From: Planctomycetaceae bacterium
GTDB taxonomy: Bacteria > Planctomycetota > Planctomycetia > Planctomycetales > Planctomycetaceae
Reading direction: 5' to 3'
DNA length: 64,000 nt
NCBI GenBank assembly: GCA_028284485.1
Contig: JANQRQ010000086.1
Span: forward strand, 1 to 64,000
Shown here: in pieces, positions 4,891 to 64,000 of the stretch
Layout of the letters: the number at the start of each line of letters is the position of its first letter
Numbering within the stretch: the stretch's first letter is position 1
The notes under the pieces: model-generated
What the model saw: the letters and a program-made list of their open reading frames with translations, nothing else
What the model was told of the DNA's origin: nothing
The model's database searches: none
Position numbers and translations under genes: made by a program

Positions 4891-5456
4891 CGGTAACTCT
4901 CTGTGGATAAAGGGAAGATCGATTTATATCGGTTTTTGGTGGTGGCGGGCCGCCGGTGGTATCGGTCGCCGGCAATGGACATAACCACAACAATTGTTGC
5001 GAATTAGGTCGCTGGGCCGATTCTCAGATCGTTTTTCGGTCCGCCATCGGAGCCGTACGCGGGCCCCGGATTTAAGAGGAAATAGTCTAACAGGTTACGG
5101 TCGCCGTCGATACTGACGCGGGTGGTTTGTATGGGTTGCGCGGGATCGAGAACGCTGGTGGAATCAACGCAATTTCGCACGGTCGATCGCCGCACGGAAT
5201 CGTTTTCAGACCATGATCAAGATTGAAGGTGCGGTTATGACGACTGCGCGGGCCATTCGGAAGATTGCATGAGAATCTCGCTCTTTTCATTGGGCTTTTT
5301 TCCGAATGCATCGCCTCCCTGACCTACGTTTTCGGAGAAGGAAAAGGAGTCCTGACATTAGAGATATTGCAGACGGAGCAAAGTAGTAACTCTTAGCGAC
5401 GAGACGGGGCGGACGTGGCTCTGTCCGAGTGAATACAATAATCCGGAGTGCAGCAG
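4891..5456. other. Divergent intergenic region, no gene seen
   Basis: This is the upstream region shared by the minus-strand DUF3311/symporter operon and the plus-strand tad-like pair. Short open frames here lack family resemblance and ribosome sites. I see no clear RNA gene. A GGAG at 5445-5448 serves as ribosome binding site for the next gene. Confidence 0.5.
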
Positions 5457-6056
5457 ATGAGAATCTTTCGACGTTCGATGAAGAATTCCGGCGAAGGCCG
5501 CAAAGGTGCGGCTGTTGTCGAATTCGCCGTCATCGTGCCGATCTTTCTGCTGTTGATCTTCGGCTGCTTCGAAATCGGTCGGGCCGTTATGGTCAAGCAC
5601 ATCCTGGAAGAAGGCTGCCGGGCAGGTTGCCGGGTCGCCGCGATTCAGGATGCGACTGAAGAAGAGGTGATGACAGTCGTCGATCTGGCGATGGCCAATG
5701 CCGGAATCTCCGGATACTCCGTGACGATCGATCCCGATCCGCCGAGTACGGCTGAGCATTTAGAAGCGGTTTCTGTCTCGATTTCCGTGCCGCATTCGGA
5801 AGTGGCCTGGTTGTCGAGTCCGAAATTCATGGGCGGTTCGACACTGTCGGGAGTATGCATCATGCCCGCCATCCGGGAACCAGGTGACGATGCCGGCGAA
5901 GTCGGTGGCGTGCCGCCAATCATCGGTGGTGACGACGACGATGATGATGATGATGACGACGATGATGATGACGACGATGATGATGATGACGACGACGACG
6001 ATGATGATGACGATGATGATGACGACGATGATGATGACGACGACGACGATGACTAG
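5457..6056 (+). CDS. TadE-like pseudopilin/membrane protein with a 41-residue poly-aspartate C-terminus
   Basis: 199 residues. The N-terminus RKGAAVVEFAVIVPIFLLLIFGCFEIGR is a textbook TadE/TadG segment: a conserved Glu five residues into a single transmembrane helix, the TadE-like domain. An extracytoplasmic region with the usual 'hileegcraGcRvaai' features follows. After VPPIIGG the protein is pure aspartate to the stop. ATG 5457 is chosen over a GTG at 5448 because GGAG (5445-5448) sits 8 bases before it. The next gene encodes a TadG-like protein, so the two likely act together in a tight-adherence-type pilus or surface complex. No other tad genes are in view. The acidic tail is not a family feature and may bind cations or surfaces. 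Confidence 0.88.
   Translation: MRIFRRSMKNSGEGRKGAAVVEFAVIVPIFLLLIFGCFEIGRAVMVKHILEEGCRAGCRVAAIQDATEEEVMTVVDLAMANAGISGYSVTIDPDPPSTAEHLEAVSVSISVPHSEVAWLSSPKFMGGSTLSGVCIMPAIREPGDDAGEVGGVPPIIGGDDDDDDDDDDDDDDDDDDDDDDDDDDDDDDDDDDDDDDDDD
5931..6053 (+). repeat. (GAY)41 trinucleotide tract encoding poly-Asp
   Basis: 41 consecutive GAC/GAT codons ending directly at the TAG stop. GAC and GAT are mixed irregularly in short runs, so it is not a perfect microsatellite, although slippage could still change its length in steps of one codon without shifting frame. Confidence 0.97.
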
Positions 6057-49098: not shown

Positions 49099-49638
49099 AT
49101 GCGTCGCGTGTTATATATTCTCGGTCTGCTCAACGACGACGATATCGATTGGCTGTTGAGTGCGGGCGAACGGACGGACGTTCCGGCCGGTGAAACAATC
49201 ATCGAACAGGGCCAGCCGGTGAATTTTGTGTTCCTGGTTATTGCGGGCCAGTTTCGTGTCGTGACCGGTCATGAAGAAACGCAGTTGGCAAGTCTCATGC
49301 AGGGTGAGATCGTCGGTGAAATCTCGCTGCTCGATTCTCGGCCGCCGACGGCAACCGTAACTGCCGATACCGATAGCCAGGTTTTGCGGATTCCGCATCG
49401 CGCGCTGCTCGCCCGTTTGGAATCAAACGATGCGTTTGCCGGAAGGTTCTATAAAGCCCTCGCCGTGTTTCTGGCCCAGCGCCTGCGACAAACGGTCGCC
49501 ACATTCGGATACGGTGCGAACGAACGTTTAAGCGAAGATATCGAAACGGCCGAAGAAATCGATCCAGAACTTCTTGAATCGATTACCTTGGCCGGCAAGC
49601 GATTCAACTGGATTCTCGAGCGATTGCAAAGCCGATAA
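49099..49638 (+). CDS. Cyclic-nucleotide-binding (CRP-like) domain protein at head of export operon
   Basis: 179 residues. The cNMP-binding beta-roll is clear: VPAGETIIEQGQPVNFVFLVIAGQFRVV, then LMQGEIVGEISLLDSRPPTATVTADTDSQVLRI with the phosphate-binding-cassette core GEIVGEISLLDSRPPTATV. A C-terminal helical region (AFAGRFYKALAVFLAQRLRQT...) replaces the DNA-binding domain; there is no helix-turn-helix. This suggests an allosteric or assembly component rather than a transcription factor. Its stop lies only 12 bp before the HlyD gene, so it is part of the same operon. Whether it binds cAMP, cGMP or nothing is unknown; the usual Arg after GE..LL is here in DSRPPTA. Confidence 0.85.
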   Translation: MRRVLYILGLLNDDDIDWLLSAGERTDVPAGETIIEQGQPVNFVFLVIAGQFRVVTGHEETQLASLMQGEIVGEISLLDSRPPTATVTADTDSQVLRIPHRALLARLESNDAFAGRFYKALAVFLAQRLRQTVATFGYGANERLSEDIETAEEIDPELLESITLAGKRFNWILERLQSR

Positions 49639-49650
49639 TACGAGGCTCGC

Positions 49651-51105
49651 ATGGCGAACAAACAGATTTTTCGACAGGAAGCCTTGGATCGACTCCAGTC
49701 TCCGGAAGAACTGGATCAGTTGCTAGTCGTTATCAATCGCAAATCGTGGATTGTCATTTGGGCTCTCTGTTTCATTTGTGCAGCCGGAATCGCGTGGTCT
49801 TTTCTTGGGCGCATCCCGATTACCGTTGATGGGTTCGGTGTGCTGATCAATCCAGGCAACGTTAAGGGAATTCAGTCGCCGGCGAGTGGTCAGATTGCAT
49901 CGATTTCAGTCCGCGTCGGTGAAGTGGTGACCGAAGGACAAACGCTGGCCATTCTTGATCAGCCGGAACTCGTCAAGGAATTGGAGCAGCTGCAGGATCG
50001 CCGAAAAGAACGCGTCGCTTTCCACAAGGTGGCTGCCACGCTCGACAAACAGCGGCAAGAACTCGAGACCAACTCTTATAAACAGCAGCGTGCTTTCATT
50101 TTGGAGGAGATCAAAGAATCGGGTGGAATTTCGGAAGAGCTTTATGAGCAGTCGAATGAGTTCGCAGAAGAACAGCGTCGCAATCTGACTACGACAAAGG
50201 AGCTGACATCGGGGCTGAACAAATCGCTGCGCAATCGGCTCGACACAATCAAAACGCTGCGTTTCGAAGGGCTGACATCGCAGGACCTGGTGCTGGATGC
50301 CGAAAGTAATTTGATGGACAGCGAGCTTCGTGCTGCCAACGTCGATGTGCAATTCAAGGAATTGGAGTTGGCTCGAATCCAAAGTGAGCGCTCGCGTCTC
50401 GAACAGCAAAACCGATTGTCCGATCTCAAGCTCCAATTGCTTCAACTGGACATTGCCAGCCAGCGACTCGAGCAGGAGTTGCTGAACAACCGCGAGAATC
50501 GGGAGAACGAATTAGGTGAGTTGGATAATCAAATCGCGAGGATCGAACTCAGACTTAAGCGTCAGGGGCAAATTGTCAGTGATTGCAACGGTCGAATTCT
50601 CGAGATCACCGTGCAACCCGCTCAGGTTGTGAGTACGGGGATGCGCATCGGCACGATTGAAAGAGACGATCCCGATGCGGAACTGACGAACCTCGCCTAT
50701 TTCAGCATTAAGGATGGGAAGCGGATCAAAGCAGGAGCGCGGGCCCGCGTGACTCCATCGACCGTTCAACGTGAACGCGAAGGAAGTATTGTCGGAACTG
50801 TCAGCAATGTGTCGGCGTTTCCGATTACCCAAGAAGGCATCGTCAACATCGTCGGTAGCCCCGAGATTGCGCAATCGCTGATTCAGCAAGGGGGCGCGAT
50901 CGAGGTCGAAGTCGAATTGGAACGAGACGCCGACTCGTTTAGCGGCTTCAAATGGACTTCGAAAGGGCCGGAAATCGGATTCACGGCAGGAACGACGACC
51001 GCGGTCAGCATCACGATCGAACAACGAACACCCATTACTTACCTGCTGCCAATTCTTCGAGGTTGGTTTTTGGGAGAGCAAGACGCGGCAGCACCCGACA
51101 TTTGA
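49651..51105 (+). CDS. HlyD-type membrane fusion protein of an NHLP export system
   Basis: 484 residues. One transmembrane helix (about 33-52) is followed by a biotinyl-lipoyl-like half (GNVKGIQSPASGQIASISVRVGEVVTEGQTLAILDQPEL), a long alpha-helical hairpin (about 105-300, many Gln/Glu/Leu), the second lipoyl half (QIVSDCNGRILEITVQPAQVVSTGMRIGTIE), and a C-terminal beta domain. The layout matches the HlyD family found beside NHLP/Nif11 precursors (TIGR03794 type). It would bridge the two ABC transporters below to the outer membrane. GAGG before ATG 49651 and close spacing on both sides support a single operon. Confidence 0.9.
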   Translation: MANKQIFRQEALDRLQSPEELDQLLVVINRKSWIVIWALCFICAAGIAWSFLGRIPITVDGFGVLINPGNVKGIQSPASGQIASISVRVGEVVTEGQTLAILDQPELVKELEQLQDRRKERVAFHKVAATLDKQRQELETNSYKQQRAFILEEIKESGGISEELYEQSNEFAEEQRRNLTTTKELTSGLNKSLRNRLDTIKTLRFEGLTSQDLVLDAESNLMDSELRAANVDVQFKELELARIQSERSRLEQQNRLSDLKLQLLQLDIASQRLEQELLNNRENRENELGELDNQIARIELRLKRQGQIVSDCNGRILEITVQPAQVVSTGMRIGTIERDDPDAELTNLAYFSIKDGKRIKAGARARVTPSTVQREREGSIVGTVSNVSAFPITQEGIVNIVGSPEIAQSLIQQGGAIEVEVELERDADSFSGFKWTSKGPEIGFTAGTTTAVSITIEQRTPITYLLPILRGWFLGEQDAAAPDI

Positions 51106-51176
51106 TCGAATCGAAATCGCCTCATTCATCCGCTTGAATTTGCCGGGTATGTCCGGATGACTCCAGCCGCTTGCCA

Positions 51177-53414
51177 ATGACTGCCATTCTCTCGCAACGC
51201 AAACACACACCAACTGTCCTTCAGATGGAGGCTGTGGAATGCGGTGCCGCTGCGCTCGCCATGATTCTGGGGCATTATGGCCTGATCGTTCCGCTCGCCG
51301 AACTGCGACAGCGTTGCGGCGTGTCGAGGGACGGTAGCAAGGCCTCGAACGTCGTGAAGGCCGCGCGTCTGTATGGAATGACGGCCAAGGGGTACAGCAA
51401 GTCGCTCGAAGATGTCAAAACGATTCGGGCACCATTTATTGTCTTCTGGCAATTCGACCATTTTCTGGTAGTGGAGGGTTGGGATCGAAAGTATGTGTAT
51501 CTGAACGACCCGGCTCTTGGTCATCGTCAACTTACTTGGGACGAGTTCGATGCAGGGTTTACTGGTGTTGTGCTCGTTATGGAACCGGGCGACGACTTCG
51601 AGAAAGGCGGTCGTGCTCCCAGCCCGGTTACCGGCATCCTGCAGCGGATGCAGGGGAATACCATCCCGGTCTTGTTCTGTGCGATCGCCGGTATTTTGAT
51701 GGTGCTACCGGGATTGGCGATTCCGACATTCTCGCGCATTTACATCGACTCGATCATCATCGATGGGCGGTTCGGGTGGTTCCGCCCGCTGCTCATTGCC
51801 ATGGCGGGCACCGTTGTCCTGAAGATTGTTTTGCAAGGTGTTCAGCAACTTTACACACGTCGACTTCAATTAAGTCTCAGTGCTCGATTGAACAGCCAAT
51901 TCTTCTGGCATTTGATGCGGCTTCCTGCCGGATTCTATGCGCAGCGATTTCCCGGCGAGATTGTGGGCCGGATGGGGCTCAATAGCAAAGTTTCCGGGGT
52001 AATTGCCGGACAATTGATCGGCACATTGATCGACCTGTTTACGATGCTGATTTACGGCGCTGTGCTGATGTTAGTGAGCGTTCCGCTCACCTTGATTGCG
52101 GGATCATTCGCAGCCATCAATATTGCTTATCTTCGTCGCGTGGCAAAAAGTCGTATCGAAGCCAACCTGCGATACTCCCAGCATGGCGGCAAGCTCGATG
52201 GCGTCACAATCGCTGGTATTCAGTCGATTGAAACGATGAAGGCGTCTGGAATGGAGAGCGGGTTTTTCGACAAATGGGCCGGCTATTTCACCAAAATGTC
52301 AAACGCGGGTCAGGAACTTCAGCAGTCGACGCAGGGAGTTGAGGTCATCCCGATTGTCGTCGATACGCTGACGACCGTGCTGATACTAATCGTGGGGGGA
52401 TACAACGTCATTCAGGGAAGTATGACCATCGGTACGCTTGTCGCGTATCAAGGGTTGATGGGGAACTTCTTGGCACCGATCCAGCGGCTGACAAGCATCG
52501 GAACCACACTTCAGGAATTGCGTGGCGATCTGCTCCGGCTGGATGATGTTCTTGGAAACCCGCCGTCGGAAATGGCTCTTGCGCAAACGCCGCCGAGTGA
52601 TGGGAATTCGGAAAAGAGTGACAGCGAAAGTGTTGATCGCCAGCCTGCCACATTTCGTCTGGACGGTCGTTTGGAATTGCGCGACGTGACTTTTGGTTAC
52701 AGCCCGCTCGATCCGCCGTTGATTCAAGATTTCAGCTTGAAGGTAGAACCTGGTCAACGAATTGCATTGGTTGGCGGAAGCGGCTCGGGAAAATCGACCG
52801 TTGCCAAGTTGATTTGCGGATTGTACGAACCGTGGACTGGCGAGATTCTTTTTGACGGAAGACGTCGCGAATCCATCAAGCGAGATGTCCTGTGTCGATC
52901 TTTGGCCATGGTCGAGCAGGATGTTTTCATGTTTGAAGGCACAGTGCGCGAGAATCTCACACTGTGGAATCGCACGATCCCGACGAGTGATTTGGAACGT
53001 GCCTGTCGTGATGCCCATATTCACGATGTGGTCGGCAATATGCCCGGGGCCTATTCGGCACGTCTGAGCGAAGGTGCGACGAACTTAAGTGGGGGACAGC
53101 GACAACGGCTCGAAATCGCCCGGTCGCTTGTCAATAACCCGGCCATTCTTGTTCTCGACGAGGCGACAAGCGCGCTCGACTCCGAAACCGAAGCAATTCT
53201 CGATTCCAATTTGCGTCGGCGCGGATGTACCTGTGTGATCGTTGCACATCGATTGAGCACGATTCGAGACTGCGATGAAATCATCGTGATGGACCGAGGC
53301 CAAGTGATCGAACGTGGAACGCACGAACAACTTTGGAAGTCGGGTGGCCTTTACGCGGAGTTACTGCGACATCAGGACGGAACTCAGCAAGGGACCGAGG
53401 CGGCCATGGCATGA
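51177..53414 (+). CDS. NHLP-type ABC exporter with N-terminal C39 leader peptidase
   Basis: 745 residues. The C39 peptidase domain comes first: Gln16, catalytic Cys22 (QMEAVECGAAALAMILGHYG), His95 (FWQFDHFLVVEGW) and Asp111 (YLNDPALG) are all in place, so it should cut leaders after double-glycine motifs. The transmembrane domain occupies about 160-440. The ATPase has Walker A GGSGSGKST, signature LSGGQRQRLEIARS, Walker B ILVLDEATSALD and switch VAHRLSTI. It matches the peptidase/permease/ATPase subunit of NHLP systems (TIGR03796 type). ATG 51177 is used; a TTG lies two codons upstream. The natural substrates are most likely the five precursors encoded at 56645-61197. Confidence 0.93.
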   Translation: MTAILSQRKHTPTVLQMEAVECGAAALAMILGHYGLIVPLAELRQRCGVSRDGSKASNVVKAARLYGMTAKGYSKSLEDVKTIRAPFIVFWQFDHFLVVEGWDRKYVYLNDPALGHRQLTWDEFDAGFTGVVLVMEPGDDFEKGGRAPSPVTGILQRMQGNTIPVLFCAIAGILMVLPGLAIPTFSRIYIDSIIIDGRFGWFRPLLIAMAGTVVLKIVLQGVQQLYTRRLQLSLSARLNSQFFWHLMRLPAGFYAQRFPGEIVGRMGLNSKVSGVIAGQLIGTLIDLFTMLIYGAVLMLVSVPLTLIAGSFAAINIAYLRRVAKSRIEANLRYSQHGGKLDGVTIAGIQSIETMKASGMESGFFDKWAGYFTKMSNAGQELQQSTQGVEVIPIVVDTLTTVLILIVGGYNVIQGSMTIGTLVAYQGLMGNFLAPIQRLTSIGTTLQELRGDLLRLDDVLGNPPSEMALAQTPPSDGNSEKSDSESVDRQPATFRLDGRLELRDVTFGYSPLDPPLIQDFSLKVEPGQRIALVGGSGSGKSTVAKLICGLYEPWTGEILFDGRRRESIKRDVLCRSLAMVEQDVFMFEGTVRENLTLWNRTIPTSDLERACRDAHIHDVVGNMPGAYSARLSEGATNLSGGQRQRLEIARSLVNNPAILVLDEATSALDSETEAILDSNLRRRGCTCVIVAHRLSTIRDCDEIIVMDRGQVIERGTHEQLWKSGGLYAELLRHQDGTQQGTEAAMA

Positions 53415-53510: not shown

Positions 53511-56423
53511 ATGGCGACGATTGAGGAAACCGGATCTCACCTGGTACGCGGTAACTCCGCGTTTCTGCTCGACCGATCGGATGTGATCTGGCGAGTGGAA
53601 TCGGGCTGCGTCGCGATATTTAGCGTCGGTGTTCAAGAAGGAAAACCATCGGGCCCGCGGCGTTATTTGTTTACGTGCCGGCGTAACGATGTTTTGTTCG
53701 GTAGCAGTCCGAGTGCAACGCAGGTGTCGACCGGGTTTTTGCTTGTAGGACTCGAGGAATCGCGACTGAAAGAGCTGCCCTATGCGGCACTAGCCGCGGA
53801 TGGTCAGGAAGAGACAGCCCATTTCGGCGAGCATGTGGCATCGTGGGTGCGGCATATTTGCGCCGTTGTTAACCCGGGAGCCGACCAGGTTCATGCTGAC
53901 AAGGTCGATGCCGGCCATCGCTATCAACTCGCCGCCGACCAAAGTGTCAAACCGGCACCGGACGATGTGCTGTGGGTGAATGTGGAATCCGGCAGTGTGA
54001 ATCTGGTTGGCAACCAAGAATTGAACCTTCCTGCGGGCGACGATTGGATTCCACTTGGTGGTGGAATCCGCCTGACAGCCGCTGAAGACGCTCAAGTGGT
54101 TTTTCACGATTCGGCGAGCCTGCCCTCGTTGCAATCGGCAATGGCCGGCATCGCTCGGCTCCATGAATTGTGTTTTCGCTTTTTGGCGATGGCTGAACAG
54201 CGTGAACGTCAAGCCGAAGCGCAACGGGTGCGTCGCAGCGAGCAGCTTCAGGCGCGCGACACATCGGCCGCGATTCATGAATTGACGAATGTGGTCTTCA
54301 ATCGGGCCGATGCACCTGTCGACCCTGAAGACGCGCTGATGGCGGCCTTAATGCCCATCGGACGCGCTATGAATCTGACTTTTCGCCCAGCGGGACGATG
54401 GGAAGATCTCAGCCGTCGTGAAGACCCGGTCGAAGCTGTCTCGCGTGCCTCCCATATTCGTGCACGTCGTGTGTCACTGGCTGGCGAGTGGTGGAAGTCT
54501 GACGCGGGACCATTACTGGCGTTCCTCGCCGAGGATAAGCGCCCCGTTGCCTTGCTGCGCTCGAAGAACGCGTATGTCCTGTTCGATCCTCAGCAGAATC
54601 GGCGGGTGCGCGTCGATCGAAATGTGGAACAACTTTTGGAGCGCGAGGCAAGATCGTTTATTCGTCCGTTACCCGACAACCCGACATCGCTGGTTAACCT
54701 TGGCCGATTTGCCACGCGGCCGTTTTTGCCCGAAACGGCGATCATGTTGTGCTTGTCTGCAGCGATTGCGATCCTTGGCATGCTTGTCCCGCTTTCAACT
54801 CAGGTCGTGATCGATCTGGCAATACCCGATGCTGACGTTGTCCTGCTGTACCAACTTGCTGCCGGATTGATTGCCATGGCGTTGGGGCAGGCCGCATTTT
54901 CCTATTCCCAGGACACCGTGTTATTGCGCATGGATACGGGCGTGACGGCCAATATGCAGTCTGCGGTTATGGACCGTCTTTTGAGGCTGCCGACGCGGTT
55001 CTTTCGCAAGTATTCCAGCGGAGATTTGCAGAATCGCGCCATGATGGTTTCCGACATTAGTCAGGAGATTGGCAACAATGCCATCGGCGCCATGCTGACC
55101 GGCGGCATGGCAGTTCTCAATATCGCGTTGTGTTACTACTATAGCGCTCGACTGGCCGTTATCGCTGTCGTGTCGGCAGTCATCGTGTCCGGGTACACGG
55201 CAGGTCTATCAAGCCTGATTCGCGGCAGCGCCCGGAAACTTGGTCTCAGTCAGGGCAAAATCTTTGGCATGCAGGTGCAGTTGATCAGTGGGATTTCAAA
55301 AATTCGGATCGCTGGGGCCGAACAACGGGCGTTCAATCACTGGGCCAAACAGCAGGCCCGTCAGTTGCGGGTTTCTGCTGTCATTCAACGCCTGGAGGGT
55401 TTGGGTGGTCTTATCAATACCGGTTTAAACCACGCTACGACCATCTGTTTGTACTATTTCGCTGCTGCACTGCTGGCCTCTGATGCCAAGCTGGCAGCCG
55501 TCGGGCAAGCGGGATCGGTATTTCTGACGATGGGGGCATTCCTTGCGTTTAATGGCGCGTTCATGTCGCTGATTGCCGGCATGACGCAGCTCAGCGGAAC
55601 GATTGTCAACGTGGCGGAAAGCTGGGCGAAACGAAAGCTCGTTCTTCCCCTGCTCGAAGCCAAGCCGGAGATTACTGCAAAGCGAGCCGACCCCGGCCGG
55701 CTGCAGGGGGGCATCACCGTCAACGAGGTGAGCTTTCGCTATCGAGAAGATGGTCCGCTAATTCTCAACGGTGTCAGCCTGCAGGCAAACCCTGGTGACT
55801 TTGTCGCCCTGGTTGGGCCATCGGGGTGTGGTAAGTCAACGCTGTTGCGAATTCTGCTCGGTTTCGAAACGCCGGAAGCGGGGACGATTTGCTTCGACGG
55901 TCAGGATTTGTCCGGCATCGATGTGACTGCCGTGCGCCGACAATTTGGGGTGGTGTTGCAGTCGGGTTCGATCAACGCGGGATCGATATTTGATAACATC
56001 GCCGGCGCCGCCGTCATCACCCTGGATGAAGCGTGGGAGGCCGCTCAAGACGCGGGATTTGCTGAAGACGTGCAATCCATGCCGATGGAGATGCACACGT
56101 ACTTGAATGAAGGGGGCGGCACCCTGTCGGGCGGGCAGCGCCAACGGCTGTTAATCGCCCGCGCCTTGGTGACAAAACCGAAGATTCTGATCTTTGATGA
56201 GGCCACCAGCGCGTTGGATAACCGCACGCAGGCGATTGTGAGTGAGAGCTTGATCCGTCGCCAAGTGACCCGCATTGTCGTTGCACATCGTTTGAGCACG
56301 ATTCAAGATGCCACTCGTATCTACGTGATGGAAAACGGCCACGTCATCCAGTCGGGAACCTACGAAGAACTGGCGAAAGCTGAAGGGCTGTTCCAGCGGA
56401 TGATCGCGCGGCAGTTGGCGTGA
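53511..56423 (+). CDS. Second NHLP-type ABC transporter (no active C39 peptidase)
   Basis: 970 residues, much longer than a plain ABC exporter. The N-terminal 390 residues hold a beta-rich, cNMP-binding-like region and a degenerate peptidase-like region; the catalytic Cys/His pair of C39 is not visible. The transmembrane domain (about 405-700) and ATPase follow, with Walker A GPSGCGKST, signature LSGGQRQRLLIARAL, Walker B ILIFDEATSALD and VVAHRLSTI. This is the companion permease/ATPase seen in NHLP clusters (TIGR03797 type). It may form a heteromeric exporter with the preceding protein. The first precursor gene starts 221 bp later. Confidence 0.92.
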   Translation: MATIEETGSHLVRGNSAFLLDRSDVIWRVESGCVAIFSVGVQEGKPSGPRRYLFTCRRNDVLFGSSPSATQVSTGFLLVGLEESRLKELPYAALAADGQEETAHFGEHVASWVRHICAVVNPGADQVHADKVDAGHRYQLAADQSVKPAPDDVLWVNVESGSVNLVGNQELNLPAGDDWIPLGGGIRLTAAEDAQVVFHDSASLPSLQSAMAGIARLHELCFRFLAMAEQRERQAEAQRVRRSEQLQARDTSAAIHELTNVVFNRADAPVDPEDALMAALMPIGRAMNLTFRPAGRWEDLSRREDPVEAVSRASHIRARRVSLAGEWWKSDAGPLLAFLAEDKRPVALLRSKNAYVLFDPQQNRRVRVDRNVEQLLEREARSFIRPLPDNPTSLVNLGRFATRPFLPETAIMLCLSAAIAILGMLVPLSTQVVIDLAIPDADVVLLYQLAAGLIAMALGQAAFSYSQDTVLLRMDTGVTANMQSAVMDRLLRLPTRFFRKYSSGDLQNRAMMVSDISQEIGNNAIGAMLTGGMAVLNIALCYYYSARLAVIAVVSAVIVSGYTAGLSSLIRGSARKLGLSQGKIFGMQVQLISGISKIRIAGAEQRAFNHWAKQQARQLRVSAVIQRLEGLGGLINTGLNHATTICLYYFAAALLASDAKLAAVGQAGSVFLTMGAFLAFNGAFMSLIAGMTQLSGTIVNVAESWAKRKLVLPLLEAKPEITAKRADPGRLQGGITVNEVSFRYREDGPLILNGVSLQANPGDFVALVGPSGCGKSTLLRILLGFETPEAGTICFDGQDLSGIDVTAVRRQFGVVLQSGSINAGSIFDNIAGAAVITLDEAWEAAQDAGFAEDVQSMPMEMHTYLNEGGGTLSGGQRQRLLIARALVTKPKILIFDEATSALDNRTQAIVSESLIRRQVTRIVVAHRLSTIQDATRIYVMENGHVIQSGTYEELAKAEGLFQRMIARQLA

Positions 56424-56644: not shown

Positions 56645-57235
56645 ATGCCCACAAACTCTCAGCCGAATGACGACCGCGAACGAACCGATGGAAAGGAACT
56701 GTCCGACGAGGAACTCGACGCCGTCTCGGGCGGTCGGGGAATTACCCTACCCCAACCAACGTCTGACAGACGTAAACGCAGAACTGCGGGAAGCACCGCA
56801 GGCGATGACCCGGCAGGTACAGACAGTTCCAGCGAAGGAACGATCACAACGGGATCCGGCATCGTGATCGATTTTGAAGACGGTGAGGGAACCAGCACGC
56901 CGCCTGAGTCCTCGACCAATACGACTCCACAACAGGACGACGTAAACCAAACGGACGGTGCAACCGTAACTCCACCTGGCACCCGGACCTCAGCGGATGA
57001 CAACGAGATTCAAACCCAAGAGGGTATCGTCATTGGATTCGAAGACGATGGAGGTGGAACTGCCGACGGCAATTCGACCGACGACGCATCTAATCAAGAC
57101 GATACAGGTGGAGATAGCACGTCGGCGGAATCCTCGTCGGATTCAGACTCACAGCAAGGGGACGAGGATGCAACCGATGACCGCCCCATCCGCACACGAC
57201 AGGGAATTGTCATCGACTTCGACGACGATGCGTAA
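56645..57235 (+). CDS. Exported precursor 1: double-glycine leader with acidic low-complexity core and three GIVIxF repeats
   Basis: 196 residues, AAAGGAG before the ATG. The 30-residue leader ends in LSDEELDAVSGG, the NHLP/Nif11-type cleavage motif. The 166-residue core has no cysteine and is rich in Asp, Thr, Ser, Gly and Gln. Three near-identical octads punctuate it: GIVIDFED (72-79), GIVIGFED (127-134) and GIVIDFDD (187-194, at the very end), spaced about 55-60 residues apart. A basic patch DRRKRR lies just after the leader. No membrane helix. The leader and neighbours imply secretion by the preceding exporters after C39 cleavage. The spaced hydrophobic octads could be binding or assembly sites. 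No known family for the core. Confidence 0.8.
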   Translation: MPTNSQPNDDRERTDGKELSDEELDAVSGGRGITLPQPTSDRRKRRTAGSTAGDDPAGTDSSSEGTITTGSGIVIDFEDGEGTSTPPESSTNTTPQQDDVNQTDGATVTPPGTRTSADDNEIQTQEGIVIGFEDDGGGTADGNSTDDASNQDDTGGDSTSAESSSDSDSQQGDEDATDDRPIRTRQGIVIDFDDDA

Positions 57236-57861
57236 AGCTGAAATTCCGAATGGCTCAAGTGGCCTTCGGGCGATTGTTAGGCACGTTTGAAAAAGAAGTG
57301 ACGACGCCCTGGTGCGAATTCCACTCCCAACAGAAAGTGGCAGCAACGAGGTCCGGGAATCATCCATTGCCGTTTAGTCGGGCGGCGATCCTATCTACGA
57401 CAGCAAATTACAATTGGTGTTCTTGGCGACTGCCTCGATCGCCGTTAAGTTCGCCACATTCCCTTAGATAGTAGGCGAATTTCGAATTTTTTCCGGGATT
57501 GCTGTCACACAGTGGGAAGACCTCCGTAAGAGGTTCGGGCAGTGATTTTGTTCATTCCCCTTTTTGGGCTGGACGAAATCTTCCTTCGCCATGATCAACG
57601 CTGTCGGTTAGACAAAATAGAGAAACATATCCCCAGTGACCGTCACTCGTTTTGCAGCAACGCAGCTGGTGACTGTGCGTTGCGGAATTTGCTTAGCGCC
57701 CGAGATTAAATTCGTTCCGCAAGTGCCGCTGTGATACGATAAATGACCAGGTTGGAATGAACCGCTCAATAGCGACGCACTGCCGCAATTGGCCGGTGGC
57801 AGTGATTTAAAAGACTCGCCGTTTTTTGTACCGACCTTTGACCTAGCATGAGGGGAAGACA
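57236..57861. other. Gap between precursors 1 and 2, with promoter
   Basis: 627 bp without a convincing gene. The 13-mer GTGATACGATAAA at 57731-57743, with TTCGTT at 57711-57716 (18-bp spacer to TACGAT), repeats the arrangement upstream of precursor 1 and is a likely promoter. The stretch 57240-57330 loosely resembles a degenerate serine-tRNA-like sequence but does not fold convincingly. Confidence 0.5.
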
Positions 57862-58629
57862 ATGGCCGAAACAAATCTGGATGCAGTCACGAAGTTGCTT
57901 GCCGCCGCTGAAACCGATGACGCATTGCAAGCAGAACTTTCTGCGGCAAAGGACCTGGCGACAATCGTCCAAATTGGAAAATCTCGCGGATACGATTTTA
58001 CTGCCGAAGATGTTCAAGCGGTGGCGTCCGCCTCTGCCGCCGAAACTGATGAACTGTCCGACGAGGATTTGGATGGCGTCTCGGGCGGCGTATTCCGTTC
58101 CCCGAGTTTGCGATCGTTGTCGCCTACGTATTCGTCCACCGTTCCGACTAGTTATGACTCCGAAGCCGACGAGGCCGCCGAAAGAGAAGAGCGTGACGCT
58201 GCGCAGGATGATGCGACGCTGGAAGATGATCATGGCACGGAATGGGAAAAACCGGTTCCAGAGGAAGAGGCTGACAACGTACCGGAGGAGTCGAAGTCAA
58301 AAGAAGAGAAAGCAGAAGAGAATGTCAACGAATCGGAAGACGATCAACGGCCGACCGAGAGGGCTGAGGATAGCAAATCAGCTCAGCGCGAATCGAATAG
58401 TGCTGATGCGGACGAGGAAGATACAAATTCGACAATAACGGACACTAGCTCATTGGCCGACAGTAGCGCATCGACTTCGACGCTTGGCTCCACGACCAGC
58501 AGTTCGACCAATTTCGAATCCGCACAAACCGACAGTAGTGCATCATCGTCGACGGCTGGCTCCACGACTACTAATTCGGGCGGTCTCGACTCCAATATGA
58601 CTTCGGATTCATCTATGAATAATTTCTAG
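57862..58629 (+). CDS. Exported precursor 2: Nif11-like leader with acidic Ser/Thr-rich core
   Basis: 255 residues. The 76-residue leader is Nif11-like (MAETNLDAVTKLLAAAETDD, then LATIVQIGKSRGYDFTAEDV, as in TIGR03798-type leaders) and ends LSDEDLDGVSGG. The 179-residue core has no cysteine. It runs from a Ser/Thr/Pro start (VFRSPSLRSLSPTYSS) through a Glu/Asp/Lys-rich middle to a Ser/Thr-rich tail with a 24-residue tandem repeat. The leader is almost identical to that of precursor 5 (60577), as is the core stretch around SAQRESNSADADE, so the two are recent duplicates. Secretion by the upstream exporters is expected. Core length and composition are unlike Nif11-associated RiPPs such as lanthipeptides, which need cysteine. 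Confidence 0.85.
   Translation: MAETNLDAVTKLLAAAETDDALQAELSAAKDLATIVQIGKSRGYDFTAEDVQAVASASAAETDELSDEDLDGVSGGVFRSPSLRSLSPTYSSTVPTSYDSEADEAAEREERDAAQDDATLEDDHGTEWEKPVPEEEADNVPEESKSKEEKAEENVNESEDDQRPTERAEDSKSAQRESNSADADEEDTNSTITDTSSLADSSASTSTLGSTTSSSTNFESAQTDSSASSSTAGSTTTNSGGLDSNMTSDSSMNNF
58459..58602 (+). repeat. 72-bp tandem repeat (two copies) in the Ser/Thr tail of precursor 2
   Basis: Two 24-codon units (58459-58530 and 58531-58602), each starting GACAGTAG and encoding DSSAS-ST-GSTT. The copies have diverged in their second halves. A single hybrid copy lies at 61196-61267 behind precursor 5. Confidence 0.85.
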
Positions 58630-58800
58630 ACCATCGTTGAACAATTCGTGTGAAGTCCACATTCCAGTTGATTCTATGACACAGTGCAATGTTAACCGTG
58701 TCAAGATCGAGCAACGATGCTAGTTGTTCGATCTTTGCCACCATGCCCAGTCTTGCTGCCGAACTGATCAATGCCACTGGTCAAACAAATGGGAAAAACC

Positions 58801-59604
58801 ATGTCGCAACACAAACCGGGTGAACGTGACTCGTCTTCAGAAAAAATTCAAGGCAACCTTTCCGACGATGGGGAGTTAAGCGAAGACGACCTCGATGGAA
58901 TTGCCGGCGGTAGGGGAGGCAGAACAACAAGCCGAACGACGACAAGTTCCAGCAGTCTGAAGAAAATTACGAATCCGACCAGTGATACGAGCGGCGGAAC
59001 GACAGATACTCGCACGAGTTCGACACCGATCGTGGAAGAGACCGACTCCGAGCGAGAAGCGCCGGAAGTCGATGCTGATCCGGTCAATTACGATCGAGAT
59101 TTTGACAGTTCGGCGGAGACTACCGACAGCAGGGAAACGACAACCGAAAAATCGAGCGACACCAGTGGTGATGCTGTAACGGACCCTGAGATATCCACTG
59201 AATTCGATGGCGGCTCAGAAAAACCTGACAGTCAGGCAGTTGGCACCTCCGATCAGGATTCCAACAACGAACCTGCAGCGGAACAGGAACCCCATGTTGA
59301 TGAATCGGAGTCGGATCCTGTTGATTCGACGGACTTGCCGATCGAAGGGGAAACAGAGGAGGGATCCATCGAAGAAGAAAGGAAGTTAGCCGCCCAAGAG
59401 GAGTTAATCTTAGAAGAACAATTGGATGGCGTCGATGTGCCAGTTCCAGTTGTGCCGGACCCGCATTTGGAAGAACCTCCCCCAGACCCTGGCAGCCAAG
59501 CAGACGCGGAGCCTACCGAAGTAGAAATCAAAGAAGAGCCTATCGAAATAAAAGGTAAAGTCGACGTTTCGAACGAAGAGGATGTCCCTAACGAAGAGGA
59601 ATAG
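58801..59604 (+). CDS. Exported precursor 3: short double-glycine leader with long acidic core
   Basis: 267 residues from ATG 58801; in-frame ATGs at 58771 and 58789 are also possible (MPLVKQMGKTM-), and the same triple-ATG start is conserved before precursor 4. The leader MSQHKPGERDSSSEKIQGNL is followed by SDDGELSEDDLDGIAGG. The 230-residue core has no cysteine: a Ser/Thr/Arg start, then long Asp/Glu/Ser/Thr-rich disorder, and a Pro-rich segment VPVPVVPDPHLEEPPPDPG near the end, closing with KGKVDVSNEEDVPNEEE. No membrane helix. The leader pairs it with precursor 4; cores differ. Export through the C39 transporter is the likely fate. Function unknown. Confidence 0.78.
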   Translation: MSQHKPGERDSSSEKIQGNLSDDGELSEDDLDGIAGGRGGRTTSRTTTSSSSLKKITNPTSDTSGGTTDTRTSSTPIVEETDSEREAPEVDADPVNYDRDFDSSAETTDSRETTTEKSSDTSGDAVTDPEISTEFDGGSEKPDSQAVGTSDQDSNNEPAAEQEPHVDESESDPVDSTDLPIEGETEEGSIEEERKLAAQEELILEEQLDGVDVPVPVVPDPHLEEPPPDPGSQADAEPTEVEIKEEPIEIKGKVDVSNEEDVPNEEE

Positions 59605-59681
59605 GTATTCGGGCCGGCAGGAACAACCGAGTTGCGCAGCCCGCCTGACGAATGCCACTGGCCACACAAATGGGGAAAACC

Positions 59682-60533
59682 ATGTCGAAACACAAACCGA
59701 GTAATCTTGACGCGAATTCGGAAGAAATTCAGGGCGAATCGCATGGAAACCTCTCCGAAGATGGGGAGTTAAGCGACGACGACCTCGATGGAGTCGCCGG
59801 CGGCACAGGGACAATTGAGGCGAGCCAATCAGCAACAACTTCCAGCAGCTTACGAAATGCGATTCGCGGGAGTGATCCACTGAACGCGGCTGTTACGGAC
59901 ACGCTAGCCGGCGTCACGGACGGTGCCGATGGCGGGGAAGCCGAGACCAACCGTGACACTGCAAGCGAATCGGATGATTCGTCTGACAAATCTCAACAGA
60001 TGCCTGACGAGATTGCTGAAGAAACGACTGGTAAGACGGCCGGTGCGGGGATGTCAGCGGTCTCGGTAGCCGCGAGCGGTGCTACCGCAGCCGTGAGCGT
60101 TGCTACCGCCGGCGTTGGAGTCGCCGCGGGTGTCGGTGTCACCATCGGTTCCGGTGGTGTTGCCGGAGGCGCTGCCGTTGGTGGCAGCGGAGCTGGTACT
60201 GGTATTGGAGGGACAGCGGTAGGAGTTGCAGTCGGAACTGGCGCCGAGTCCACGGGAAGCGGTGCGGCAGTCGAGGGGGGTGTTGCTGCTGGTGGGACTG
60301 AAAGTCCCGAAGGTGCATCGGCAGGAGTGGCTATTGGTGCTGCTGACGGTGCGGCTATCGGGAGCCTCGAAGGTACTGCCGAAGCTGTTGTGAATGACGA
60401 AGCCACAGACGAGACGGACGAAAACTCCGAAGAGTCTGAGCCCGAAAAAGCCGAATCCGAAAACACCGAAGAGCCTCAAAAAGCCGAATCCGACAAATCC
60501 GCAAGCGACGAAGTGAAGAATGAGAAGCCGTAA
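59682..60533 (+). CDS. Exported precursor 4: acidic core enclosing a long Gly/Ala/Val (glycine-zipper-like) block
   Basis: 283 residues from ATG 59682 (upstream ATGs at 59652 and 59670 give the same triple start as precursor 3; GGGGA sits just before 59682). The 41-residue leader ends ELSDDDLDGVAGG. The core starts Ser/Thr/Asp-rich, then has about 120 residues (60036-60392) of almost only Gly, Ala, Val, Ser and Thr, with GxxxG-type spacing (AGVGVAAGVGVTIGSGGV...GGSGAGTGIGGTAVGVAVG), and returns to a Glu/Lys/Ser-rich tail with KAES repeats. No cysteine. Gly/Ala-rich zippers occur in class II bacteriocins and in amyloid or fibre proteins, so membrane insertion or self-assembly is possible; neither is shown. 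Confidence 0.8.
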   Translation: MSKHKPSNLDANSEEIQGESHGNLSEDGELSDDDLDGVAGGTGTIEASQSATTSSSLRNAIRGSDPLNAAVTDTLAGVTDGADGGEAETNRDTASESDDSSDKSQQMPDEIAEETTGKTAGAGMSAVSVAASGATAAVSVATAGVGVAAGVGVTIGSGGVAGGAAVGGSGAGTGIGGTAVGVAVGTGAESTGSGAAVEGGVAAGGTESPEGASAGVAIGAADGAAIGSLEGTAEAVVNDEATDETDENSEESEPEKAESENTEEPQKAESDKSASDEVKNEKP

Positions 60534-60576
60534 AACGCCCCGTTACGAATCGAGGATCAAAACTGGAGCATGACCG

Positions 60577-61197
60577 ATGGCCGAAACAAATCTGGATGCA
60601 GTCGCGAAGATGCTTGCCGCCGCTGAAACCGATGACGCATTGCAAGCGGAACTTTCTGCGGCAAAGGACCTGCCGACAGTCGTCCAAATTGGAAAATCTC
60701 GCGGATACGATTTTACTGCCGAAGATGTTCAAGCAGTGGCGTCCGCCAGTTCCGCCGAAACGGATGAACTGTCCGACGAGGATTTGGATGGCGTCTCGGG
60801 CGGCATGCTCATGTCAACTGCTCACAGCTTTCCCTGGTTAGTTGGGTACGGACCTACCACGATCACCGGTAATACGAATCTATTTACCGGAGGTGGTAGT
60901 TCCGATGGTTGGGTCGACACCTCGCCCGGCGCCGGCGAGACGTCCGATCGAGAAGTGCCCGACGCTGCGGAGGATGAGGCTACGCTGGAAGATGAGCGTG
61001 GCACGAAATGGGAAGAACCTGCTCCAGAGGAAGAGCCAAACCACGCGCACTATGAGTCAAAGTTGAATGAAGAAAGTGTCGACGATCCGGAAGACGAACG
61101 ACGTCCGACCGAAACGGCTGAGGATAGCCAATCAGCTCAGCGAGAATCGAACAGTGCTGATGCGGACGAGAATGATCCCAAGTCGTTAAAAAACTGA
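60577..61197 (+). CDS. Exported precursor 5: Nif11-like leader, acidic core, probably frameshifted near the end
   Basis: 206 residues, 43 bp after precursor 4. The 76-residue Nif11-like leader differs from that of precursor 2 at only a few positions and ends LSDEDLDGVSGG. The 130-residue core begins differently (MLMSTAHSFPWLVGYGPTTITGNTNLF, unusually hydrophobic for this set), then follows precursor 2 (DEATLEDERGTKWEEPAPEEE; EDSQSAQRESNSADADEND). It stops at TGA 61195-61197, just after a run of six A. Beyond the stop the Ser/Thr tail of precursor 2 continues in the +1 frame. So either the tail was lost by a one-base insertion, or the run is read with slippage, or the base count is a sequencing error. 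No cysteine. Confidence 0.8.
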   Translation: MAETNLDAVAKMLAAAETDDALQAELSAAKDLPTVVQIGKSRGYDFTAEDVQAVASASSAETDELSDEDLDGVSGGMLMSTAHSFPWLVGYGPTTITGNTNLFTGGGSSDGWVDTSPGAGETSDREVPDAAEDEATLEDERGTKWEEPAPEEEPNHAHYESKLNEESVDDPEDERRPTETAEDSQSAQRESNSADADENDPKSLKN

Positions 61198-61401: not shown

Positions 61402-61563
61402 ATGCAGGCATCGTGGCTTCAGAGAATAGTATTTGTGTTCAACTTGACCATTTCAGTCGAACGTAACTTCCCCGACGTCTTGGCGGGGATTCGATCGAAA
61501 GAGCTGCATAACAAGGGCGAGGTTGCTTTGCTATTGTCCTCCTGCGGAATCGATTTGGAATGA
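61402..61563 (+). CDS. Possible small ORF coupled to the HExxH gene
   Basis: 53 codons from ATG 61402 (frame open to 61369), ending in a TGA that overlaps the next ATG as ATGA. The product (MQASWLQRIVFVFNLTISVE...) has a hydrophobic start and a mixed C-terminal helix. No family recognised and no clear ribosome site. The overlap is the only evidence that it is translated. Confidence 0.3.
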   Translation: MQASWLQRIVFVFNLTISVERNFPDVLAGIRSKELHNKGEVALLLSSCGIDLE

Positions 61564-62726
61564 CGACGGAATCCGAAACGGTTCACAGGCGTATTCGCGT
61601 GCTCGAACAAATTGGGGCAGATCCGCAAGCACGTGACGAACTGATGCGGTACAACGAGAACCAGTTCGACCACAGCCAAGTCGATGCCAACGTCAAGTTT
61701 CCGCTACCGGACGAGCCCCATGTCGCAGCTTGGCGAGGGTACGCTGACGACGCAAAGCACGAAAGCACAGTCGCAGTACTCAGTCGAGCGCTGGTGCAGT
61801 TGCAGTTTCCCATACGCGCGGAAATCAGCGAGACCGACGAGTATCGCTCGGCAACTCGCCGCGGCACTAGTACAAATACCATGGAGTCGGCCACCGGTGT
61901 GACATGGCAAGCACCGGACCACATCAAGCTGAAACTGCATGCCACGCCTGCCGGAACGATTCCCGTGCTCGTTGCCGGTGAACGAGCCGATTTCGAGACG
62001 CTCATTCAGGCGTTGACCAAGCGCAACGAACCGGCGGTAATTCCCGAATCGATGGGCGCGCTGATGGTCGCCGGCTACAACAACTGGGACCGTGTGCATG
62101 CCCTCAAACAACAGTGGCTGCAGGAGCATCCGGACGACATGCTGGGAACTGGTTGGTCCGAAGAATTCTCCAAAAACGTTGTGCCGCATAAGGAGCTGTA
62201 TCAGGACAAGTTCATCATCCTCAGCTCGGGACCTTACAGCGGCGTGGCGGCTGGCGATTTGGGAATGAGTGATGACGAATGGCAACGATTATCGCTGACC
62301 ATTCGGCTGGAGCATGAATGCGCACACTACTTCACACGGCGTTTGTTCGGGTCGATGCAGAACAAGTTGCTGGACGAGTTGATCGCCGACTATTGTGGAA
62401 TCGTGGCGGCCAATGGTCGCTTTCGTGCCGATTGGTTTTTGCGCTTCGTTGGATTGGAAGAATTTCCGAAGTATCGTTCCGGCGGTCGGCTGGAAAACTA
62501 CCGCGGAGATCCACCGCTTTCCGATTCCGCGTTTCAGCTCCTTCAGCAAGTGGTCTGCAAAGCGGCAATCAATTTGGAACAAATTGATCAGCAGCATGCC
62601 GATCGGTTGGAGTCGATCAATAACCAGGCGCGGTTTACCACCGCTTTAACACGTCTCACATTGGAAGAATTGGCTTCGGACGAAGCACCAGATTTGTTTG
62701 GTGCAACATTGGCGGGCCAGGCTTAA
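61560..62726 (+). CDS. HExxH protein, putative metallopeptidase, in the export cluster
   Basis: 388 residues, no signal peptide. A zinc-peptidase-like motif HECAH (252-256, in IRLEHECAHYFTRRLFG) is followed 16 residues later by DELIADYCGI (272-281), whose Glu or Asp could supply the third ligand, as in gluzincin-like peptidases. The rest has no motif I know; the N-terminal half has mixed alpha/beta character (GALMVAGYNNWDRVHALKQQWL). Located between the precursors and a glycosyltransferase, it may process or mature the exported proteins, or act on the producing cell's own surface. It could also be a non-catalytic relative. The cytoplasmic location argues for action before export. Confidence 0.65.
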   Translation: MTTESETVHRRIRVLEQIGADPQARDELMRYNENQFDHSQVDANVKFPLPDEPHVAAWRGYADDAKHESTVAVLSRALVQLQFPIRAEISETDEYRSATRRGTSTNTMESATGVTWQAPDHIKLKLHATPAGTIPVLVAGERADFETLIQALTKRNEPAVIPESMGALMVAGYNNWDRVHALKQQWLQEHPDDMLGTGWSEEFSKNVVPHKELYQDKFIILSSGPYSGVAAGDLGMSDDEWQRLSLTIRLEHECAHYFTRRLFGSMQNKLLDELIADYCGIVAANGRFRADWFLRFVGLEEFPKYRSGGRLENYRGDPPLSDSAFQLLQQVVCKAAINLEQIDQQHADRLESINNQARFTTALTRLTLEELASDEAPDLFGATLAGQA

Positions 62727-62817: not shown

Positions 62818-63558
62818 ATGAAGATTTCATTTTGTACAACCTGTATGGGCCGGCTTGACCATCTGGCGGTGACTCTGCCTCACAATCTGGCAATTCCTAA
62901 CGATGCCGATGTGGAGTTTGTGATTTTGAACTACAACAGTCAGGATGGTCTCGACGACTACATGCGAACTCAAATGCAGTCCCACATCGACCGCGGTTTG
63001 ATCAACTATTATCACACCACGGAACCGGAGAGTTTCAACATTTCCCACGCGAAGAATGTCGCGCACAAGGTTGCCCAGGGCGAGATCCTGGTAAATCTTG
63101 ATGCGGACAATTTTCTCGTGGACGGCTATTTGGAATGGATGCGCGAACTGTTCTCGCAGCGAAAAGACATTATCCTTCTTTCGCCAGCCACGGACTGCGA
63201 GGACAAACCCGGATCGTGTGGTAAGATTGCCGTACTCCGGGAACATTTTCATAGCGTCAATGGGTATGACGAAAGCCACGAAGGATGGGGCTGCGAGGAT
63301 ACGAATTTTCAGCTCCGCGCCAGGTTACATAACGATATCGGGTTCCAATTCTGTAGCCAAACCTACTGTCGCGTCCTGGATCACGACGACTCGAGGAGAG
63401 TCGAGAATTATCGCGCGACAGATATGCACAAATCTCGGGAGCGCGGGCTCCAAACTCTATCTCAGATCCTGCAAGGTGCAGACTGTGTGGCTAACCAGGG
63501 ACAACCCTGGGGGCAGGCGACACTTCGAAAGAACTTCGTTGAGGATATGACCATATAG
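62818..63558 (+). CDS. Glycosyltransferase, GT2/GT27-like (Glyco_transf_7C motif)
   Basis: 246 residues. GT-A start MKISFCTTCMGRLDHLAVTL, strand VEFVILNYNSQDGLDDYM, the metal-binding DxD in LVNLDADNFLVDG (95-97), and the C-terminal motif NGYDESHEGWGCEDTNFQLRA (148-168). The last matches the acceptor/donor loop of galactosyl- and polypeptide GalNAc-transferases (Glyco_transf_7C; 'WG.ED.d...R'). It probably transfers a hexose or N-acetylhexosamine from a nucleotide sugar. Within this cluster the obvious acceptors are the Ser/Thr-rich cores of the exported precursors; that is inference. No membrane helix, so it would act in the cytoplasm before export. Confidence 0.85.
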   Translation: MKISFCTTCMGRLDHLAVTLPHNLAIPNDADVEFVILNYNSQDGLDDYMRTQMQSHIDRGLINYYHTTEPESFNISHAKNVAHKVAQGEILVNLDADNFLVDGYLEWMRELFSQRKDIILLSPATDCEDKPGSCGKIAVLREHFHSVNGYDESHEGWGCEDTNFQLRARLHNDIGFQFCSQTYCRVLDHDDSRRVENYRATDMHKSRERGLQTLSQILQGADCVANQGQPWGQATLRKNFVEDMTI

Positions 63559-63703: not shown

Positions 63704-64000
63704 ATGCAGTTGGCTTACGTGGAACAACTCGGAAAGCTGGTCACGCGCCTCTGGAATGAGCAGTCTTGCGACGTACATAAGTTTCCAGAAGTTGCGCTGC
63801 AGGCATTCAGTGAATTGCCACCAGTCGAGCACATCGAATTGAACGAGATCGTTAACTGGGTGATGCAGACGAACCAGCTGCCCGGGCAGACGGACCTCGA
63901 GGAACGATTCGGCCAGCCACCGATTACGCTGTTTTCGGACGGAAGATTCCAAATCGAAATCTACTTTTGGCTAGATGGAAGCACGGATATTCACGAGCAC
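63704..64000 (+). CDS. Unidentified gene, truncated by window edge
   Basis: From ATG 63704 the frame stays open for 99 codons to the edge. It starts MQLAYVEQLGKLVTRLWNEQ and ends ITLFSDGRFQIEIYFWLDGSTDIHEH. The last segment, beta-rich with a His-x-His after DGST, resembles the metal-binding start of a cupin-like fold, but too little is visible to decide. It follows the glycosyltransferase on the same strand and may belong to the cluster. No in-frame alternative start lies between the upstream stop (63659-63661) and this ATG. Confidence 0.6.
   Translation, partial: MQLAYVEQLGKLVTRLWNEQSCDVHKFPEVALQAFSELPPVEHIELNEIVNWVMQTNQLPGQTDLEERFGQPPITLFSDGRFQIEIYFWLDGSTDIHEH

Follow-up and report, generated by a model that had tools for sequence, protein, structure and literature searches.

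The window analysed here, a 64,000-nucleotide stretch of a 68,800-base contig (C266) from a Planctomycetaceae bacterium, carries towards its end an export operon, five precursor genes and a putative glycosyltransferase gene, with the following features:

49099–49638, + strand: cyclic-nucleotide-binding-domain protein (PF00027, 3.6e-20), head of the export operon
49651–51105, + strand: NHLM HlyD-type secretion protein (TIGR03794, 325 bits, over cut-off)
51171–53414, + strand: NHLM ABC1 with C39 peptidase (TIGR03796, 1052 bits, over cut-off; PF03412, 8.4e-35)
53511–56423, + strand: NHLM ABC2 exporter subunit (TIGR03797, 842 bits, over cut-off)
56645–57235, + strand: precursor 1, GG leader of 30 aa and acidic Ser/Thr-rich core of 166 aa
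57862–58629, + strand: precursor 2, Nif11 leader (TIGR03798, 46.5 bits) and 179-aa core with 33% Ser+Thr and no Cys
58771–59604, + strand: precursor 3, GG leader and 230-aa core
59652–60533, + strand: precursor 4, GG leader related to that of precursor 3, and 242-aa core
60577–61197, + strand: precursor 5, Nif11 leader (TIGR03798, 44.8 bits) and 130-aa core; paralogue of precursor 2
61560–62726, + strand: DUF7005 protein with HExxH (PF22541, 525 bits)
62818–63558, + strand: GT-A glycosyltransferase, candidate RiPP-tailoring enzyme (ATG start, 246 aa)
62824–62856, + strand: ISFCTTCMGRL, subfamily signature, nearly invariant in 28 relatives
63094–63111, + strand: NLDADN, DxD metal/nucleotide-sugar site, D95 and D97 invariant in 28 relatives
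63262–63309, + strand: GYDESHEGWGCEDTNF, acceptor/catalytic loop, D161 invariant in the subfamily alignment
63379–63399, + strand: DHDDSRR, H189 and R194 nearly invariant
63704–64000, + strand: 5' part of a 409-aa gene of unassigned family, cupin-like HxH...H, continuing on the contig to 64933

The gene at 62818–63558 is an intact ORF that contains both the DxD and the EGWGCED loop on which the original prediction was built. Its product matches three families over their curated cut-offs (PF10111, 4.8e-8; PF02709, Glyco_transf_7C, 5.2e-8; PF00535, 1.8e-7), and it is the weakest of the 26 PF00535 matches in the genome. Because its maximum hydrophobicity over 19 residues averages only 0.82, the enzyme has no membrane-like segment, which agrees with the cytoplasmic location first proposed. 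An AlphaFold model built with 27 relatives as input reached a pLDDT of 93 and a pTM of 0.91, and neither this model nor Pfam reveals a second domain in the 246 residues. A Foldseek search of the PDB with the model returned GT-A enzymes, namely a Leptospira glycosyltransferase, WrtF, K4CP, TarS and SpsA, while the enzyme profile matched the solved chains of the chondroitin synthase K4CP (3e-9) and beta4GalT (8e-8). The fold, the DxD and the PF00535 and PF10111 matches over cut-off are those of a GT2-like GT-A enzyme. In the alignment with beta-1,4-galactosyltransferase, the loop lies opposite GWGGEDDDIYNRL, and H189 lies opposite the His of the MIRHSRDK segment; the equivalent His in GT7 enzymes is a metal ligand. 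Since the loop is GT7-like, the enzyme is predicted to be probably inverting. The GWGxED loop and the GT-A fold are thus shared with GT7 beta4GalT and K4CP, although only the C-terminal half of the enzyme matches GT7 and the enzyme is a single short domain. Judged from its sequence and structural model, the gene encodes an intact, soluble GT-A glycosyltransferase with conserved catalytic positions.

Of the resemblances originally drawn, to polypeptide GalNAc-transferases and to beta-galactosyltransferases, a GT27-like character is not supported. The GT27 polypeptide GalNAc-transferases, which transfer GalNAc to Ser/Thr with retention, have a DxH metal-binding motif, a loop of the form WGGENxE and a C-terminal ricin-type lectin domain. 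The enzyme has the GT-A fold and the general Gal/GalNAc-transferase loop in common with them, and its profile gives weak matches to two GT27 chains (6s22, 6e-6; 5nqa, 3e-4), and GalNAc-T2 appears at rank 23 of the fold search. However, it carries DxD rather than DxH and ED rather than EN (WGCEDTNF), it lacks the lectin domain, and chondroitin synthase and beta4GalT are better profile matches. GT27 membership was ruled out on this motif, domain and profile evidence, and we regard mucin-type GalNAc transfer by a bacterial GT27 enzyme as extremely improbable.

The genes upstream provide a different context. The five proteins at 56645–61197 are indeed Ser/Thr-rich and acidic, as had been noticed: their cores contain 19–33% Ser+Thr and 17–29% Asp+Glu, a sum equalled in none of the 26 other ORFs of the window, and no Cys is present in any of these 130–242-residue cores, which are probably disordered. 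What had been overlooked is that these proteins have Nif11/GG leaders and that the operon before them is an NHLM RiPP exporter. By sequence, all five leaders end in GG after an ELSDEELD(A/G)VSGG-like stretch, and those of precursors 2 and 5 exceed the TIGR03798 cut-off for Nif11 leaders. The C39 peptidase of ABC1 is expected to cleave GG leaders, and the cyclic-nucleotide-binding protein at the head of the operon holds the equal position in other NHLM loci. In the core of precursor 1, a GIVI(D/G)F-acidic motif also occurs three times at intervals, resembling a repeated core unit.

On the same strand, the enzyme gene begins 91 bp past the DUF7005 gene and ends 145 bp ahead of the 409-aa gene. 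In the DUF7005 protein the HExxH residues are H252, E253 and H256, with E273 and D277 conserved, and a homologue in another genome (G103) has the HExxH in common. In four of the five genomes with a DUF7005 match, the match sits in an NHLM/LanM locus, and the protein is possibly a metallopeptidase of RiPP clusters. A further DUF7005-like ORF (G123, L033 8701–10221) contains many tandem CPEQHFPQSSFSPEQV-type repeats. The 409-aa protein belongs to no Pfam family and found no match in the 58 relatives searched, and a profile search of solved structures gave no useful match for it or for the DUF7005 protein.

The cluster continues past the window. In the remainder of C266, the 409-aa gene is closely followed by a minus-strand gene for a Nif11 peptide; a TolC-like protein, so named after its own sequence and after related genes of NHLM loci elsewhere, is also encoded, and another Nif11 precursor begins there. 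The last 68 bases of the contig (68,733–68,800) recur without mismatch at the end of contig C279 (L044), and the overlap falls inside the ORF of this Nif11 precursor, whose reading frame runs on in C279. We infer from this overlap that the two contigs adjoin, which would bring into the cluster a LanM (TIGR03897, 783 bits) and a PoyD-family epimerase (TIGR04517, 352 bits), both over cut-off, together with an NHLP-like peptide. This LanM is the only PF13575 match in the genome and would lie about 5 kb further on than the enzyme gene. A paralogue of the 409-aa gene (43%; L044 2094–3308) adjoins the LanM gene; H97, H99 and H158 of the HxH...H are invariant in the two proteins of 405–409 aa, which are possibly cupin-type RiPP enzymes. 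The locus therefore holds an HlyD protein, ABC1 with its C39 domain and ABC2, Nif11/GG leaders and, through the overlap, the maturation enzymes LanM and epimerase, and by this gene content the surroundings of the enzyme are an NHLM/Nif11 RiPP cluster. A graspetide-like reading of the acidic cores was rejected: in the list of ORFs from 49 kb to the end of C279, no large ORF is left for an ATP-grasp enzyme.

As the enzyme is encoded within a cluster for the production and export of modified ribosomal peptides, it probably attaches sugar to the proteins exported there. More specifically, we consider it somewhat better than an even bet, from sequence and by analogy, that it is a tailoring glycosyltransferase that glycosylates at least one GG/Nif11-leader precursor in the cytoplasm before cleavage and export. 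This reading draws on the RiPP cluster, the GG-ending leaders, the Ser/Thr-rich cores and the fact that, in another phylum, relatives of the enzyme are repeatedly found coupled to RiPP export loci. In the proposed scheme, the enzyme would transfer a sugar from a nucleotide-sugar, in a metal-dependent manner, to Ser/Thr, or perhaps a different side chain, in at least one of the five precursors before it leaves the cytoplasm; the C39 domain of ABC1 would then cut after GG, and ABC1, ABC2 and HlyD would export the product together with the TolC-like channel. In this scheme, the use of the precursors as acceptors is an inference, as are the residue and sugar involved, the order of steps and the role of the leader. 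Speculatively, the 409-aa cupin-like protein might hydroxylate a residue for the enzyme to glycosylate. Counting against a tailoring role, RiPP cores do not usually look like these long and probably disordered ones.

The acceptor could instead be a small LanM/PoyD-type product, that is, the minus-strand Nif11 peptide, the Nif11 peptide at the junction of the two contigs or the NHLP peptide, in the manner of glycosylated lanthipeptides. In favour of this, the cluster contains LanM, the PoyD epimerase and a Nif11 peptide whose short core has Ser/Thr and two Cys, and many partners of the subfamily in Bacteroidota are short Cys-rich GG peptides. Nevertheless, the enzyme gene comes after the long precursors, with LanM some 5 kb further on, and we consider modification of the small products alone quite unlikely, the long cores being the presumed acceptors in preference to the short Nif11 and NHLP peptides.

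Whether the enzyme belongs to this cluster functionally can also be approached through its relatives. A search of GTDB contigs (84,980 species) with the single enzyme sequence found no relatives, whereas a two-sequence alignment of the enzyme and its relative from a genome of the same family (G003) found 27 loci. The relatives have in common ISFCTTCMGR..HL..TLP.N, YNSxDGL, HAKN, NLDADN, GYDE..GWGxED.D and an N.G..WG ending, which places the enzyme in a broad GT2-like subfamily. A tree of 54 rows joins it to genes from Verrucomicrobia (L076) and Neisseriaceae (L077) with support of 98/93, outside a Bacteroidota RiPP clade, and no RiPP genes were seen near these two orphan genes. One may argue, then, that the enzyme is a passenger in the cluster or belongs to another pathway, acting as an orphan GT2-like enzyme on a lipid, a surface glycan or a small metabolite. 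Indeed, most relatives outside Bacteroidota are lone genes, those of alphaproteobacteria and others lying in housekeeping surroundings; the subfamily occurs in only 4 of 392 planctomycete genomes, the nearest relative there being a 603-aa protein in an unrelated locus; and a glycosyltransferase of this subfamily is absent from every other planctomycete NHLM locus examined. Yet the gene lies on the strand of the operon, tightly spaced and flanked to left and right by genes of cluster type; recruitment of the subfamily to RiPP loci is seen elsewhere; and the contig has no second PF00535 match, in line with the earlier remark that no other sugar-polymer gene is near. On balance, a passenger role is unlikely, though it keeps appreciable weight.

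Two further ideas about the origin of the gene were set aside. A conserved module of enzyme, DUF7005 and NHLM genes in Planctomycetota was ruled out because the other NHLM loci examined are without the enzyme; DUF7005 itself does recur with NHLM/LanM. A phage origin of the enzyme was likewise rejected: it is suggested only by isolated distant matches and by one copy located among the tail genes of a phage in Acinetobacter. This copy, in Acinetobacter boissieri (L100 10001–10681), sits between tail-sheath-like phage genes, and further relatives occur in a gut phage record (MT837976.1) and on an Acinetobacter plasmid (NZ_CP110255.1); they are perhaps virion-modifying enzymes.

The tailoring role gains its comparative support from Bacteroidota. 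In four Pedobacter species, the subfamily gene stands beside genes for a C39-ABC exporter, HlyD, a GG-leader cargo of about 250 aa and a Lant_dehydr_C-like protein, in places with other glycosyltransferases too, and 22 of 301 Sphingobacteriaceae genomes have the gene. In Bacteroidota (L086, L087, L095, L097, L136–L156, L158 and L167), the subfamily gene almost always neighbours a Lant_dehydr_C-like gene and a C39 exporter with GG-leader cargo. All 29 Bacteroidota loci that were read, not counting one truncated copy, give these figures for the flanks retrieved (distances mostly below 10 kb): a Lant_dehydr_C-like gene in 26, usually directly adjacent, and a C39-ABC gene in 22; of those lacking the latter, two are situated close to the end of a contig. 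When all C39 matches of 12 genomes were considered, 13 of 13 subfamily copies lay within 10 kb of a C39-ABC gene (0.08 expected for random positions). Among some 150 top PF00535 matches listed for the same 12 genomes, inspection by eye showed one that lies so close (G647:C45:204726), and it is in the locus of one of the subfamily copies. These loci are not independent, because most come from one clade of one class. Their cargo is in some cases Gly/Tyr-rich and about 250 aa long. Bacteroidetes lanthipeptide clusters with GG leaders, C39 proteases and split LanB enzymes have been described (PMC7268733); the pairing of this glycosyltransferase subfamily with C39 and GG leaders in Bacteroidota was not found in the literature searched.

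The window enzyme lies outside the Bacteroidota RiPP clade and is absent from the other planctomycete NHLM loci, and thus its presence in a RiPP cluster probably reflects a separate recruitment. The two settings are alike in that a gene of the same subfamily accompanies C39 exporters and GG-leader cargo, directly so in Pedobacter and its kin, but the Bacteroidota loci have a Lant_dehydr_C-like partner and not LanM/PoyD, and their cargo is often Gly/Tyr-rich or short and Cys-rich. The Bacteroidota coupling consequently supports the role of the window enzyme by analogy only. The proposal that the enzyme modifies the adjacent exported proteins is supported by this coupling and the RiPP context; the original interpretation as a whole is borne out in part.

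Known glycosylated RiPPs include the glycocins and cacaoidin. In glycocin clusters of the SunS, EnfC and ThgS type, a cytoplasmic GT2-type enzyme is encoded together with a C39-domain exporter and a precursor that has a GG leader and undergoes O- and/or S-glycosylation (PMC8620827, PMC12457901); for the glycocin enterocin F4-9, O-glycosylation of Ser/Thr is known (PMC8620827). The cluster reported here likewise has a GT2-type enzyme, GG-leader precursors and a C39 exporter, but glycocins are short disulfide-containing peptides, whereas these precursors are acidic proteins of considerable length that lack Cys and carry Nif11/GG leaders. The first 50 Foldseek PDB matches include none named as a glycocin enzyme. 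In Nif11-leader prochlorosin clusters of marine Synechococcus, GT2 genes rank with the most frequent additional enzymes (PMC10783134). By gene content, these clusters are similar to ours in placing a PF00535 glycosyltransferase beside Nif11-leader precursors and LanM; they differ in being cyanobacterial, while the present cluster has NHLM genes, DUF7005 and long acidic precursors.

Neither the enzyme family nor long acidic substrates were found described for RiPP glycosylation in the literature searched. The new elements are the subfamily, precursors that are long, acidic and free of Cys, and how strong the coupling in Bacteroidota is. If the tailoring role is correct, it would add one more glycosyltransferase subfamily to the few RiPP glycosylating enzymes, it would concern two phyla for which the literature searched describes no glycosylated RiPP product, and it would make exported proteins of 130–240 residues RiPP-type substrates. 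The Bacteroidota loci offer many simple enzyme/precursor pairs for direct testing. More speculatively, and in our view improbable as a whole, NHLM exporters and RiPP leaders might here serve the production of secreted glycoproteins and not of small antibiotics: long, disordered proteins rich in Ser, Thr, Asp and Glu, to which a single small GT2-like enzyme would add sugar at numerous positions, a bacterial counterpart of mucins in function, with the subfamily separately recruited to the GG-leader cargo of Bacteroidota.

Two minor observations were made along the way. A Chitinophagaceae protein of 1181 aa (L094 8297–11842) carries three domains of the enzyme subfamily in tandem. Elsewhere in the window, a pilus-assembly-like ORF at 5448–6056, TadE-type by eye, ends in about 50 consecutive Asp residues.
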